Part shown: in pieces, positions 7,350 through 46,959 of the stretch | Layout of the letters: each line of letters opens with the position of its first letter | Position numbering within the stretch: position 1 is the stretch's first letter | Assembly (NCBI RefSeq): GCF_002804065.1 | Contig: NZ_CP024955.1 | Location: 1,736,001 to 1,800,000 of the forward strand | Direction: 5' to 3' | DNA length: 64,000 bases | Source of the DNA: Kyrpidia spormannii | GTDB taxonomy: Bacteria; Bacillota; Bacilli; Kyrpidiales; Kyrpidiaceae | Translations under genes and position numbers: made by a program | Notes under the pieces: generated by a model | Seen by the model: only the letters and a program-made list of their open reading frames with translations | What the model was told of the DNA's origin: nothing | The model's database searches: none

Positions 7350-8671
7350 CCGCCGCCCTCCTCGTTGAACATCTCCACGAGCTGGCGTACCGCGTCGCCC
7401 ATGTCACTTCTCACATCGCGATTCTGGGCCAGGTACGCCCACATTCGAGGTCTAAGGCGCAGAGCGGTGTCTACCTCTCGTCGGGTCCCCTCGCGATAGG
7501 CACCGATTTGAATCAAATCTTCCGCTTCTTCGTACGCCGCCAACAGGGCTTTAAACCGGGCTGCAGCCCGGATGTGACCTGTCTCCGCCACTTGATTCAT
7601 GAGGCGACTGGTACTCGCCGTTACATCGATGGCGGGATACAGCCCCTGTTGGGCGATTTTCCTGGATAATACGATGTGACCGTCCAGAATGCCCCGCACG
7701 GCATCCGCGATGGGTTCGTTAAAATCGTCCCCTTCCACCAAGACGGTGTAAAAGGCGGTAATCGAGCCGGTACGGGCAGTTCCCGTGCGCTCCAACAGTT
7801 TTGGCAGGGCAGCGAAGACCGAAGGGGTGTAGCCCCGGGCGGTGGGGGGTTCGCCGGCGGCCAATCCCACCTCGCGGCAGGCCATGGCAAAACGGGTTAC
7901 AGAGTCCATCAACAACAGAACCCGTCGTCCCTGGCGCCGGAACCGCTCCGCCATGGCTGTGGCCGTGAGCGCCCCTTTGATCCGCATCAAGGGCGGCTGA
8001 TCGGATGTCGCAGCCACCACCACCGCCCTTTTTCGCCCTTCTTCATCCAACTCCCGGGCGATAAAATCCTGCACTTCCCTTCCTCGCTCACCAATCAGGC
8101 CAATCACCGTCACGTCCGCTTCGGTATAACGGGCGATCATCCCTAAAAGGGTGCTTTTCCCCACCCCACTCCCGGCGAAAATGCCGATCCTCTGGCCTTG
8201 TCCCACCGTGAGCAGCCCGTCGATCGCCCTCACGCCCACGGACAAGGGCTGGTTCACCGGGGTTCGAGCCATGGGTGGCGGGGGAGGCTGCTCGATGGGA
8301 TCTTGAAATTCCCCCGCCACCGGCCCGAGCCCGTCGATGGGCCGGCCGAGTCCGTCGAGAACCCGCCCCAAAATGCCCGGCCCAGTGGGTACCCGGAGGC
8401 CTTCGGACACCACCTTCACCACGGCGCCGTTGTGGATGCGGTCCAGGTCGGAGAAGGGCATCAGAATGAGCCGGCGGTTCCGGAAGCCCACGACCTCCGC
8501 AAAACGCGGCCCGGCGTCCGTTTCAATCGAGCAGAGATCTCCCACCCGCGCCACGGGACCGTTCGATTCCACCGTCATGCCTACCGCTTGGGCGACCCGC
8601 CCGGAAACCCTCCACAGGGGGGAGCGGCGAAGAGTTTCGCAATACGCGTTGGTGTCCCAACTTTCCTGCAC
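7346..8671 (-). CDS. fliI: Flagellum-specific ATPase FliI
   Basis: This 441-residue F1-beta-like ATPase has Walker A GIFAGSGVGKSTLLG, Walker B VLLLMDSVTRFAMA and the export-ATPase motif GYTPSVFAALPKLLERTG. It energises type III export of flagellar subunits together with FliH and FliJ. The start is GTG with GGGGTG upstream. The frame begins six bases after the fliH stop and ends overlapping fliJ. Confidence 0.97.
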   Translation of the reverse strand: MQESWDTNAYCETLRRSPLWRVSGRVAQAVGMTVESNGPVARVGDLCSIETDAGPRFAEVVGFRNRRLILMPFSDLDRIHNGAVVKVVSEGLRVPTGPGILGRVLDGLGRPIDGLGPVAGEFQDPIEQPPPPPMARTPVNQPLSVGVRAIDGLLTVGQGQRIGIFAGSGVGKSTLLGMIARYTEADVTVIGLIGERGREVQDFIARELDEEGRKRAVVVAATSDQPPLMRIKGALTATAMAERFRRQGRRVLLLMDSVTRFAMACREVGLAAGEPPTARGYTPSVFAALPKLLERTGTARTGSITAFYTVLVEGDDFNEPIADAVRGILDGHIVLSRKIAQQGLYPAIDVTASTSRLMNQVAETGHIRAAARFKALLAAYEEAEDLIQIGAYREGTRREVDTALRLRPRMWAYLAQNRDVRSDMGDAVRQLVEMFNEEGGG

Positions 8672-8677
8672 CGGCTT

Positions 8678-9430
8678 TCACCCCGCTTGGCGAGCCCGGG
8701 CCCGGATTAGAGCCGCCGCTTCCTCCAGGGCTGTATCCACCCGGGCGTCGATTTCTCCGCCGGAGGAGGAAACCACCACATCTCCGGGACCGAGGCGAGC
8801 GTCGGCGACGATTTTCACCCCGCCATCCCCGTAACCCAGCCGCCCGGCGTCCAACTTGTCCACATCCCCGGGATACACTCGCACCACAACATCCTCGGCG
8901 GGCAACAGGCTCGCCACCGCCTCTTCGGCCACCGCGTGGACGAAGCTTCGATCCACTTCCACAAGTCCCCGGACCACGCGCTGGGCGACCGCCACCGCCA
9001 CCTCCGCCACGTGCGCCTCGGTGACCTCCGCCAGGCGTTTCCGTTCGGCCTCCACTTCCAAGCGCAGGGCTTCCAGCCTTTTCATCCGCTCCTCATACTC
9101 GACCTGGGCTTTTCGCAGGCCTTCCTCCCTGCCCTCTTGAAACCCTTCCTCCCATGCCTTCTGATGAGCGGCCTGGCGTTCGCGTTCAATCTCCCGGCGC
9201 GCTGCCTCGACCAGATCACGGGCTTCGGCTTGAGCCTTAACCAGCACTTCGGCCGCCTGGCGCCTGGCCGCTTCCAGTTCCTCTGCAGCCAGGCGGCGAA
9301 GGCGTTCTGCCACCTGAAGGGCCTCTTCAGCGGGTTCCGGACGGCCGTCGCGTGGAGCGGGATTCCCGAGGACCACCGGATCCGCAGCCAACAGTTGAGC
9401 CACCGCCGATTTCACTACTCTAGACGACAA
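8678..9430 (-). CDS. fliH: Flagellar assembly protein FliH
   Basis: This protein of about 250 residues has a long Ala/Glu/Arg-rich coiled coil (heptads such as AERLRRLAAEELEAARRQAA) and a C-terminal FliH/V-ATPase-E-like domain (VAEVAVAVAQRVVRGLVEVD, then the VRVYPGDV region). FliH binds and restrains FliI at the export gate. The TTG at 9430 is preferred because GAGGAGGGG lies 6-8 nt upstream and the overlap with fliG is short (11 bp). An ATG at 9466 is an alternative that would add 12 residues. Confidence 0.9.
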   Translation of the reverse strand: MSSRVVKSAVAQLLAADPVVLGNPAPRDGRPEPAEEALQVAERLRRLAAEELEAARRQAAEVLVKAQAEARDLVEAARREIERERQAAHQKAWEEGFQEGREEGLRKAQVEYEERMKRLEALRLEVEAERKRLAEVTEAHVAEVAVAVAQRVVRGLVEVDRSFVHAVAEEAVASLLPAEDVVVRVYPGDVDKLDAGRLGYGDGGVKIVADARLGPGDVVVSSSGGEIDARVDTALEEAAALIRARARQAG

Positions 9431-10427
9431 TGTCGTCCCCTCCTCGCCCGATGATGATCTCCCCACTTTCTTCTAGGCGGCGTACGACACCGACGATCCG
9501 CTGTTGGGCCTCTTCCACGTCCCTGAGGCGAACAGGCCCCATGTATTCCATGTCCTCCCGAAAGGTCTCCGCCATGCGTTTGGACATGTTTCGGAAAATC
9601 GCCTCTTTCACGGTATCGCTGGCGACTTTGAGGGCGAGGGCCAGGTCGTTGGCATCCACGTCCCGGATGATGCGCTGGATCGCCCGGTTGTCCAAGAAAG
9701 CGATATCTTCGAAGATGAACATCCGCTTCTTGATCTCTTCGGCCAAATCCGGATCCCTCATCTCCAGCGCTTCCAGGATCGTTTTCTCTGTTCCCCGGTC
9801 GACCCCGTTGAGGATCTTTACCAAGGCGTCGATCCCACCCCCCGGAGTAAAATCTCTCACCGAAAGGGCGGAAAGTTTACTCTCCAGGGTGCGCTCCACC
9901 TGATCCAGCACTTCCGGGGACGTACTCTGCAAAACCGCCAACCGCTGGGCAACTTCCACCTGGGATTCCGGTGGAAGGGCCGAGAGGATCAAGGACCCCT
10001 GTTCCGGCTCCAGATATGACAACACCAACGCAATGGTCTGGGGATGTTCGTTTTGGATAAAATTCAAAATCTGCGTCGGATCTGCCCGCCGGGCGAAATC
10101 AAAGGGCCGCACCTGAAGGGAAGCCGTGAGCCGGTTAAGAATTTCCACGGCGCGCTGCTGGCCCAGTGCCTTCTCCAACACTTCCCGGGCGTATTCAATT
10201 CCACCTTTGGTGATGTACTCTTTCGCTTTATAAACCTGGTGGAATTCCTCCAGGACCAGATCTTTATAACGCCAATCCACCTTGTGGAGATTCGCCATCT
10301 CTAAGGTCAGTTGTTCGATTTCGTCGTCGCGCAGATGCTTCATCACCTGGGCCGCCGTCTCCGGTCCCAAGGTGATCATCAACACCGCCGCCTTCTCTTT
10401 TCCGCTCAACCCTGCGGATCGTTGCAT
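9420..10427 (-). CDS. fliG: Flagellar motor switch protein FliG
   Basis: This 335-residue protein has all three FliG domains: N-terminal FliF-binding (SGKEKAAVLMITLGPETAAQ), the EHPQTIALVLSYL middle motif, and a C-terminal torque domain with charged residues (DVDANDLALALK, MAETFREDMEYMGPVRL). It couples stator force to C-ring rotation. Full length for the family. It starts with ATG just after fliF, with GAGGAGTAGG as SD. Confidence 0.97.
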   Translation of the reverse strand: MQRSAGLSGKEKAAVLMITLGPETAAQVMKHLRDDEIEQLTLEMANLHKVDWRYKDLVLEEFHQVYKAKEYITKGGIEYAREVLEKALGQQRAVEILNRLTASLQVRPFDFARRADPTQILNFIQNEHPQTIALVLSYLEPEQGSLILSALPPESQVEVAQRLAVLQSTSPEVLDQVERTLESKLSALSVRDFTPGGGIDALVKILNGVDRGTEKTILEALEMRDPDLAEEIKKRMFIFEDIAFLDNRAIQRIIRDVDANDLALALKVASDTVKEAIFRNMSKRMAETFREDMEYMGPVRLRDVEEAQQRIVGVVRRLEESGEIIIGRGGDDIVV

Positions 10428-44835: not shown

Positions 44836-44883
44836 AGCGACGAGGGTTCCCAGCCGTGAACTCCAATTTTTTCATCATATACT

Positions 44884-44898
44884 TGACTAGATTAGTCA
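44884..44898 (+). promoter_or_regulatory. Palindrome in the ZIP-oxidase leader
   Basis: TGACTA-GAT-TAGTCA is a perfect 6-bp inverted repeat, followed by CTTTTTT and then the SD GGGGGTG. It may be an operator for a metal-responsive repressor, or a small leader hairpin ending in T residues. No consensus could be assigned. Confidence 0.5.
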
Positions 44899-44917
44899 TC
44901 TTTTTTGGGGGTGTATC

Positions 44918-46720
44918 ATGAATCCTTGGCACCTGTTGCTTCTTGGACTCGTCGCCGGAGGCACCATCTACTTCGGTTTGCCCGTCGGGCGTCTGAGCGG
45001 TCTCGGCGGCAAGGCACGAGCGATTCTCAGCATGCTCTCGGCAGGTATTCTCATTTATCTCATGGTGGAAATTCTGGGAGAGGCGGCCGGAGATGCAGCG
45101 GGAAGTGTGCAAGCCGCCGTCGTCGGTTCTGAAACGACTCTATCCGCCGGTCTGAAGGTCTTGCTTTTGATCGCTGGGCTGCTCATCGGACTGGTGGGCT
45201 TGGTGGCGGTCCAAGAGAAGTGGATCGAGCGGGGATTGCGGGAAAGCGGAACCCGGCTGTCCTACATCACCGCCGCCGGTATCGGACTGCACAACCTCAG
45301 CGAAGGGTTGGCCATCGGCCAGTCGTTCGCCATGGGCAAATCTGCCCTGGCCATCGGCCTGGTGATCGGGTTTGCCCTTCACAATGCCACCGAAGGGTTC
45401 GGCATTGTCGGTGCCTCCACGCGCACAGGGGAGCGGCTGTCCTGGCCCTCGATCCTCCTCTTAGGGGCCATCGGCGGCGGCCCGACCTTTATCGGGACGT
45501 TGTTGGGGAGTTTGTGGACCTCTGATTTCCTCTCCATCTTCGTTCTCGCCATGGCTGGAGGAGCCATCCTCTATGTGGTGAAAGAGCTGATGTTCGCCGT
45601 GCGGAGGGAAACCGCCCAAAGATTAATCATGGCCGCCTTGGCGATCGGTTTTGGACTGGGCTGGGGCACCGAAGTGGTGGCCGCCACTGCCCAAGGGGGA
45701 AAAAGTGGAGAGGAGCACGCCGTTCGGGAGGCGGATGGCGACATCCTGCCCGCCGCAGCGGGGAAGCCGGGGGCCATAGCCCCGGTGTCGGCCCGGGAGA
45801 GTGCGCAGCAACGGCAGATGGCCGAAGAGCTGCTGCACGAACAGGCCGCGACCCCGAAGATTCTACCCGATGGCACCAAGGAGTACGACCTTACGGCATC
45901 CGTGTTTCCCTGGGAGCTTTATCCCGGCGCCACCATCGATGCGTGGGGATATAATCAGAGGGTGCCTGGGCCTCTGATCCGTGTCAGAGTCGGAGACAAA
46001 GTCGCGATCGTGTTGAAGAACGACCTTCCTCAACCGACAACCCTGCATTTGCACGGGTTGGCCGTGCCCAATGCGATGGATGGAGTCCCACAGATGTCCA
46101 CGCAGTCGGGAACTCTTGGAACCCAACCAGAAATTCCACCCGGTGGTTCTTATACCTATCGGTTTACTGTGACCGATCAAATGGTAGGAACACACCTGTA
46201 CCACACCCATGTTAATGATGATTTTCAAATGGATATGGGTCTTCATGGGGTGATCATTGTCGATCCGGCCCACTCCTCCGCGAAGCCACCATACAGTGTC
46301 GAAGCATTGTACGAAATATCCAGTTTTAAGATCGGCGGAAGTGAGCAGGAAAATGCCTTCGCCCTAAACGGCAAGGCTTTTCCCGAAACCCCGATGTTAA
46401 CCGTGCGCCGCGGGGACCTGGTCCTTATGCGCCTCGTGAACGCCAGTGCCGAGGAATTTCACGTGATGCACCTGCACGGGTACACCTTTGAAATTGTGGC
46501 AAGAGACGGAAATTCACTGCCGCAGCCGGAACGTGCCAACACCATCACCCTCGGTCCGGCGCAAACGGCGGATATCGCCTTCACGGCTGACAATCCCGGT
46601 CAGTGGATGTTCCACTGTCATATTCTCGACCACACCGTCAACCCCAGTGAAGCGGGGGACGGATCGGCGCACCAAATTGCCCGAATGGGGGGGCTCACGA
46701 CCTTTATCAACGTCCAATAA
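44918..46720 (+). CDS. ZIP metal transporter fused to two-domain multicopper oxidase
   Basis: This is a 600-residue chimera. Residues 1-256 form a ZIP transporter with eight membrane helices and the metal-path motifs HNLSEG (His125) and HNATEG (His155). A polar linker (257-315) leads to a two-cupredoxin multicopper oxidase (about 318-600). T2/T3 ligands are H377/H379, H429/H431, H518/H520 and H566/H568; T1 ligands are H515, C567 and H572. Position 577, where laccases place Met or Leu, is Ser. The oxidase probably lies outside the membrane and could oxidise the metal that the ZIP part moves. Substrate unknown. There is no stop or second start at the junction. Confidence 0.92.
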   Translation: MNPWHLLLLGLVAGGTIYFGLPVGRLSGLGGKARAILSMLSAGILIYLMVEILGEAAGDAAGSVQAAVVGSETTLSAGLKVLLLIAGLLIGLVGLVAVQEKWIERGLRESGTRLSYITAAGIGLHNLSEGLAIGQSFAMGKSALAIGLVIGFALHNATEGFGIVGASTRTGERLSWPSILLLGAIGGGPTFIGTLLGSLWTSDFLSIFVLAMAGGAILYVVKELMFAVRRETAQRLIMAALAIGFGLGWGTEVVAATAQGGKSGEEHAVREADGDILPAAAGKPGAIAPVSARESAQQRQMAEELLHEQAATPKILPDGTKEYDLTASVFPWELYPGATIDAWGYNQRVPGPLIRVRVGDKVAIVLKNDLPQPTTLHLHGLAVPNAMDGVPQMSTQSGTLGTQPEIPPGGSYTYRFTVTDQMVGTHLYHTHVNDDFQMDMGLHGVIIVDPAHSSAKPPYSVEALYEISSFKIGGSEQENAFALNGKAFPETPMLTVRRGDLVLMRLVNASAEEFHVMHLHGYTFEIVARDGNSLPQPERANTITLGPAQTADIAFTADNPGQWMFHCHILDHTVNPSEAGDGSAHQIARMGGLTTFINVQ

Positions 46721-46801: not shown

Positions 46802-46934
46802 GACATTTGGCTGCACACCCCTCAACCCTCCGCAGTGGCGGATTACGCCGCCTTCCTCGCCTCAGAAAAGGGACTAACCATCACCGGTCAAGCTGTGGTG
46901 ATCGACGGCGGGTATGTCGCCAGTGGTACGACTT
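46802..46934 (+). pseudogene. 3' remnant of a short-chain dehydrogenase
   Basis: An open stretch without a start reads VADYAAFLASEKGLTITGQ and VVIDGGYVASGT, the conserved C-terminal end of SDR enzymes (3-hydroxybutyrate dehydrogenase type). The N-terminal 200 residues, including the nucleotide-binding and YxxxK motifs, are absent. The frame then runs into unrelated sequence over the wrbA 3' end. It fills the 244-bp gap between the ZIP-oxidase gene and wrbA. Confidence 0.7.
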
Positions 46935-46959
46935 GGGGACGGAGAAAGCCTCCGCCCCC
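46935..46959 (-). terminator. Hairpin after wrbA
   Basis: Minus strand GGGGGCGGAG-GCTTT-CTCCGTCCCC, with one G.T pair, six bases after the wrbA stop. No T tract follows, so the terminator role is tentative. Confidence 0.45.

Follow-up and report, generated by a model that had tools for sequence, protein, structure and literature searches.

A ZIP transporter fused in a single chain to a two-domain multicopper oxidase in Kyrpidia spormannii, with a possible role in iron acquisition

Can a metal transporter of the membrane and a copper-containing oxidase be one and the same protein, and, if so, which metal does it handle? The question is raised by a gene of the heat-loving soil bacterium Kyrpidia spormannii that lies within the window, by which we mean the whole 64,000-nucleotide stretch of DNA analyzed here (bases 1,736,001 to 1,800,000 of the complete 3.35-Mb genome). 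The initial annotation had proposed that an uninterrupted frame of 600 codons joins a ZIP transporter to a two-domain multicopper oxidase, and the open reading frame indeed has no internal stops. Its domain plan and principal motifs are as follows:

44918 to 46720, forward strand: ZIP-multicopper oxidase fusion gene, 600 codons from the ATG at 44918 to the TAA at 46720, with the stop inside these coordinates.
44918 to 45682, forward strand: ZIP domain, residues 1 to 255, with eight predicted helices (Pfam Zip, BbZIP profile match, loop charges, and model).
45290 to 45307, forward strand: TM4 metal motif HNLSEG, residues 125 to 130, with M1 ligands H125 and E129 (alignment with BbZIP and other ZIPs).
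45380 to 45397, forward strand: TM5 metal motif HNATEG, residues 155 to 160, with M1 ligands H155 and E159 (same alignment).
45683 to 45874, forward strand: linker, residues 256 to 319, acidic, with an invariant DGD at 273 to 275 and a predicted helix at about 291 to 308 (alignment and models).
45875 to 46717, forward strand: two-domain multicopper oxidase, residues 320 to 600 (Pfam, PDB sequence matches, fold search, and ligand table).
46046 to 46054, forward strand: HLH, residues 377 to 379, trinuclear ligands of domain 1.
46202 to 46210, forward strand: HTH, residues 429 to 431, trinuclear ligands of domain 1, with no T1 Cys there.
46460 to 46477, forward strand: HVMHLH, residues 515 to 520, with T1 His 515 and trinuclear His 518 and 520.
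46613 to 46633, forward strand: HCHILDH, residues 566 to 572, with T1 Cys 567 and His 572 and trinuclear His 566 and 568.

Five further intact, full-length fusions, 57 to 74% identical to the window protein, were found in independent assemblies, namely, those of A. cellulosilyticus (L001), A. acidiphilus (L002), a Kyrpidia MAG that is the nearest named relative (L003; the protein of G002 is identical), a member of another Bacilli family (G052; L061, 8312 to 10123), and a plasmid of Deinococcus sp. KNUC1210 (L051, 5944 to 7755). A sequencing error as the source of the fusion was ruled out by these orthologs. They are intact across the linker, and therefore a hidden stop near codons 257 to 315 is excluded; nor are the homologs always two separate genes, as single-chain forms occur in several lineages. 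The proposed single-chain architecture thus stands. Two broken copies were also seen. One, in G003 of the same genus (L062, upstream end of the frame at 8092 to 9747), has a frameshift near codon 38 that represents either decay or an assembly error. The other, in G049 (L059, 7718 to 8984), is frameshifted in the linker and retains little of the oxidase; it is followed by a gene whose translation resembles a quinol-dependent nitric oxide reductase.

The fusion is rare and is centered on Kyrpidia and Alicyclobacillus relatives. A search of 398 genomes drawn from the phylum (E ≤ 1e-70) found it only in the window's own genome, and no relative was found among viral contigs. Its distribution is patchy, with a ZIP domain of the fusion type in only 3 of the 41 genomes of the G271 family (Alicyclobacillus relatives). 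The Deinococcus plasmid copy, which sits among copper and heavy-metal genes near copper ATPases, suggests transfer between phyla. The only conserved neighbors form an ETF/FixABCX-like flank that is kept in the nearest Kyrpidia alone, and synteny therefore gives no clue to function.

When the window protein alone was scanned, Pfam Zip matched residues 115 to 246 with 34.9 bits, 0.2 below the cut-off of 35.1; the four other fused copies that were scanned all exceeded it. A profile built from the ZIP domains of 14 relatives found the solved ZIP BbZIP with an E value of 6e-12 over the whole domain length. Both metal motifs quoted in the initial annotation were confirmed at residues 125 to 130 and 155 to 160, and the ligands H125, E129, H155, and E159 were invariant in the fused and paired ZIPs when aligned with BbZIP. 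HNxPEG prolines on TM4 and TM5 and an acidic M2 ligand on TM6 are common in ZIPs, though not universal. Both prolines are absent here; the motifs read HN[LF][SGA]EG on TM4 and HN[ATIV]TEG on TM5, so that S, G, or A and T, respectively, occupy the proline positions. The position of BbZIP E240 holds T190 in the window protein and A or V in its relatives, leaving no acidic TM6 ligand. Other ZIPs encoded by these genomes lack this residue as well, so its loss does not define the family. From these alignments, the fused and paired ZIPs appear to constitute a divergent ZIP subfamily.

Compared with BbZIP (PDB 5TSA and 8CZJ), in which M1 is the primary transport site and P180 bends TM4 at the metal (PMC9873690), the fusion shares the eight-helix ZIP fold by profile and keeps the equivalents of H177, E181, and E211. 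It differs in having H155/N156 in place of Q207/D208, no Glu at E240, no TM4 and TM5 prolines, and an added oxidase that is predicted to be extracellular. A solo ZIP gene in G018 (L058, 8652 to 9419) shares 58% identity with the ZIP domain of the fusion and has no adjoining oxidase; a homolog search of that genome found no oxidase partner.

Hydropathy and loop charges indicated eight transmembrane helices, and the same number was seen in a low-confidence model. Across seven aligned fusions, the mean K+R count was 2.7, 3.4, 2.0, and 2.4 in loops 1-2, 3-4, 5-6, and 7-8, compared with 0 to 1.0 in the remaining loops and at the N-terminus, and the segment that follows helix 8 is acidic on balance. 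Under the positive-inside rule, this pattern places the N- and C-termini outside, and the oxidase half is thus predicted to be outside the membrane and not in the cytoplasm, a placement that the initial annotation had listed as a way in which its proposal could fail. For export, the oxidase would be carried across the membrane behind the last helix. Modeling of the full chain gave a mean pLDDT of 48 from a thin alignment, and the oxidase modeled alone gave 71. A fold search with the latter model ranked two-domain multicopper oxidases first at a TM-score of only 0.42, and because of such low scores, we suspect that its domain packing is wrong.

In the oxidase half, Pfam assigned residues 340 to 573 to Cu-oxidase_3 (115 bits) followed by Cu-oxidase_2 (114 bits), and the 281 residues after the linker accommodate two cupredoxin domains and no third. 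The PDB sequence matches were 2zwn, 3g5w, and 3gdc. The T1 copper site lies in domain 2, and trinuclear ligands lie in both domains. The ligand table lists eleven residues (H377, H379, H429, H431, H515, H518, H520, H566, C567, H568, and H572), i.e., eight trinuclear His, two T1 His, and one T1 Cys, which corrects the earlier count of ten. All eleven are kept in the window protein and in four other fused forms. An axial T1 ligand was not found by alignment; the residue ten positions after the Cys is Ser, and M590 is conserved nearby. The two cupredoxin domains and the split trinuclear ligands are shared with two-domain laccases and multicopper oxidases (PDB 2ZWN, 3G5W, 3GDC, 7RAB, and 3CG8), whereas the fused oxidase is anchored in the membrane through the ZIP. 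In 2ZWN, moreover, the HCH motif is in domain 1 and domain 2 has no Cys, the fusion having its T1 site in domain 2.

Several variants of the oxidase were seen among the relatives. In the Deinococcus plasmid fusion, H566 of the trinuclear site is replaced by Gln, and this copy may be inactive or altered. The G052 fusion has a Met-rich insert in oxidase domain 1 (MKMNMDGMDMKMG) that the other fusions do not have. Alicyclobacillus relatives (L027, L028, and L030 in G387, G307, and G325) have tandem two-domain oxidase genes, in which one oxidase is without the domain-1 trinuclear His ligands; the two could possibly form a hetero-oligomeric oxidase.

A tblastn search of plasmids found the fused gene once and many adjoining gene pairs in which an oxidase gene is followed by a ZIP gene. 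Of ten neighborhoods of unfused ZIPs that were opened, eight had the ZIP directly behind an oxidase gene, the exceptions being those of Natronorubrum and Mycolicibacterium. The hosts of such pairs include actinobacteria, deinococci, cyanobacteria, alphaproteobacteria, bacilli, and haloarchaea. In Sinorhizobium, Shinella, and Sulfitobacter, the pair is oriented divergently to an mntR gene, and in Arthrobacter, Rubrobacter, Deinococcus QL22, and Halorubrum, it has DtxR-type regulators nearby. Such neighbors suggest manganese or iron as the metal of the unfused pairs. TMEM165/GDT1 genes lie near the pair in Halorubrum and Chroococcidiopsis.

The pairs, annotated as a multicopper oxidase and a "metal transporter," resemble the fusion in that their metal ligands are invariant and their motifs on TM4 and TM5 lack the prolines. 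They differ in that the oxidase gene comes first, the T1 Cys is in domain 1, the oxidases begin with twin-arginine-like sequences (tatA adjoins two pairs), MntR/DtxR regulators are neighbors, and the transporter is extended at its N-terminus by about 150 residues. In a ZIP tree whose long outgroup branches leave the root unsure, paired and fused ZIP domains formed one clade (99/95) apart from BbZIP and from the other ZIPs that these genomes encode. In the oxidase tree, pairs and fusions were split with support of 100/100, in agreement with the T1 Cys in domain 1 of the former and domain 2 of the latter. One ZIP lineage has thus been joined to two oxidase lineages, which argues well, if indirectly, for a functional bond between the two activities. 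We considered the derivation of the fusion from the common gene pair as such and rejected it, given the reversed gene order and the split oxidase lineages.

Upstream of the fusion gene lies an operator-like site:

44879 to 44903, forward strand: ATACTTGACTAGATTAGTCATCTTT, IscR type-1-like operator that matches the published consensus (PMC6599224) at 22 of 25 positions.
44884 to 44898: TGACTAGATTAGTCA, palindromic core, about 20 bases before the ATG at 44918.

Pattern searches of six genomes for the core (TGACTN5AGTCA) gave 15 exact sites, which at related genes are not all independent because of common descent: six at suf, four at the fusion gene, three at FTR1, one at a siderophore-type ABC system, and one unrelated. 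Hence, 14 of the 15 are at iron or Fe-S genes, and a reversed control pattern gave two sites. (FTR1 was named by Pfam, and suf and siderophore genes were named from reading translations.) The window genome has exactly two, at the fusion gene and upstream of sufC, and G002 and G271 likewise have them at suf and the fusion gene only. The sites of G049 are at suf, the decayed fusion, and FTR1; those of A. acidiphilus are at two FTR1 genes, suf, and a divergent siderophore-type ABC system, with the unrelated one inside a sugar-binding-protein gene; and G003 has suf only. Weaker matches occur at the G271 FTR1 gene, the fourth FTR1 (9/10), and at the A. acidiphilus fusion gene (8/10). Since base counts predict about three random sites per genome, placement, not count, carries the weight; for each exact site, shuffled upstream regions gave an equal match in <1% of cases.

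In G003 and G052, the fusion is without the core site and has a Fur-type site instead. The Fur-type matches are 13/14 at the fusion and 12/14 at FTR1 in G003, and 11/14 (weak; p about 0.03) and 13/14, respectively, in G052, where the fusion is divergent from an adjoining FTR1. The window genome encodes an Rrf2 protein with a C-x9-C-x5-C motif about 5.7 kb from sufC (G000:C1:872613), and a three-Cys Rrf2 gene lies about 5 to 6 kb from sufC in all these genomes except G052. A reading of the palindrome as a DtxR/MntR-type operator was dropped, since exact copies occur at suf and the IscR type-1 consensus fits. Overall, the comparative evidence suggests that the fusion belongs to an iron/Fe-S regulon, and the operator-like site common to suf and FTR1 argues for iron acquisition rather than detoxification. 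The initial annotation had offered coupled oxidation and transport or detoxification; the functional link between oxidase and ZIP is borne out by their recurrent pairing in two oxidase lineages, and the detoxification option is disfavored by the operator.

We therefore lean, with modest confidence, toward the fusion being a single-chain oxidase-permease for iron acquisition, because intact fusions occur in several lineages, the operator-like site is shared with iron and Fe-S genes, Fur-type sites are found at both the fusion and FTR1 in G003 and G052, three-Cys Rrf2 genes are linked to suf in site-bearing genomes, the oxidase is predicted to lie outside, and a single ZIP clade has partners from two oxidase lineages. 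The ZIP half would span the membrane, its two ends facing out, and carry on the outer face the oxidase, which would there oxidize Fe(II) with O2. Three subunits would complete the inter-subunit copper centers, as in other two-domain oxidases, and the iron would be handed to the ZIP path formed by H125, E129, H155, and E159 and from there into the cell. An IscR-like three-Cys Rrf2 repressor would shut the gene when Fe-S clusters are plentiful, and a shortage of clusters would release it together with suf; in G003 and G052, the Fur-type sites would take over the role of the repressor site. Fet3-Ftr1, a ferroxidase-permease with iron channeling, provides a precedent (PMC11817551).

Several points count against the iron acquisition reading. 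ZIPs are divalent-metal carriers, so oxidation of Fe(II) ahead of a ZIP is paradoxical. Either the subfamily carries Fe(III), or oxidation drives or gates Fe(II) entry, or the oxidase serves FTR1, the last being disfavored as a general answer by the lack of FTR1 in the window's complete genome. That a ZIP remodeled by loss of the TM4 and TM5 prolines carries the Fe(III) made by its own oxidase domain seems to us rather improbable. In addition, the MntR/DtxR genes beside unfused pairs suggest manganese there, FTR1 could be the real permease in several relatives, the A. acidiphilus site is a partial match, and the plasmid copy of Deinococcus is surrounded by copper and heavy-metal genes and is missing one trinuclear His.

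Among the alternatives, one without hand-over inside the chain fares best, although we hold it to be unlikely. Here the oxidase would feed a separate permease, FTR1, or simply clear Fe(II) and Cu(I) outside the cell, and the ZIP would either anchor it or import Fe(II) on its own. The operator-like site at the FTR1 genes of Alicyclobacillus relatives, the FTR1 adjoining the G052 fusion, and the passage of iron from yeast Fet3 to Ftr1 (PMC11817551) all fit this scheme, and several relatives also have FTR1 by Pfam. However, a Pfam search found no FTR1 in the complete window genome or the draft G002, both of which keep the fusion, and the invariance of the metal ligands in all fusions speaks against the ZIP as a mere anchor.

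Copper uptake, in which the oxidase would turn Cu(I) to Cu(II) for import by the ZIP half, is less probable still. The same model has been put forward for MCO1 and the ZIP permease gene next to it in ammonia-oxidizing archaea (PMC7785015 and PMC5817080), and MCO1 and the neighboring permease of N. viennensis are modestly upregulated under copper limitation (PMC7785015); the Met-rich insert of the G052 oxidase and the copper ATPases near the Deinococcus copy are in its favor as well. However, the window protein has no such insert, and the operator-like site common to suf, FTR1, and a siderophore-type system, together with the Fur-type sites of G003 and G052, speaks for iron. Equally doubtful is manganese, a scheme in which Mn transport would be tied to the oxidation of Mn(II) and the fused form would have kept this substrate and changed only its promoter: the MntR/DtxR-type regulators and TMEM165/GDT1 genes beside unfused pairs accord with it, but the fusion promoters have IscR-like or Fur-type sites and the fused oxidase comes from a lineage different from that of the paired oxidases.

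The initial annotation knew of no described protein of this type. Adjacent MCO1 and ZIP genes had in fact been published, while the fusion itself is absent from the searched literature; our search of non-subscription papers found no report of the fusion, its iron-type control, or the proline-less ZIP subfamily. As described, the archaeal MCO1-ZIP system also links a two-domain oxidase to a ZIP-family permease with proposed coupling of oxidation and uptake, but its genes are separate and the proposed metal is copper. Yeast Fet3-Ftr1 likewise combines an outer multicopper oxidase with an iron permease under iron control (PMC11817551), but it consists of two proteins, with a three-domain oxidase and a REXLE-motif permease unrelated to ZIP. 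In thermophiles, a natural oxidase-permease made as one chain sets the ratio of its two halves and keeps them close, and it lends itself to structural work and channeling tests. It also delimits a ZIP subfamily that is associated with oxidases in bacteria and archaea alike, through two different partners. If the Fe(III) version were true, it would amount to a Fet3-Ftr1 equivalent in bacteria that uses an unrelated permease, with a ZIP carrying trivalent iron.

Just 3' of the fusion gene in the window (46835 to 46940, forward strand), a short remnant with no gene body upstream resembles the C-terminus of a short-chain dehydrogenase (VADYAAFLASEKGLTITGQAVVIDGGYVASGTTWG).
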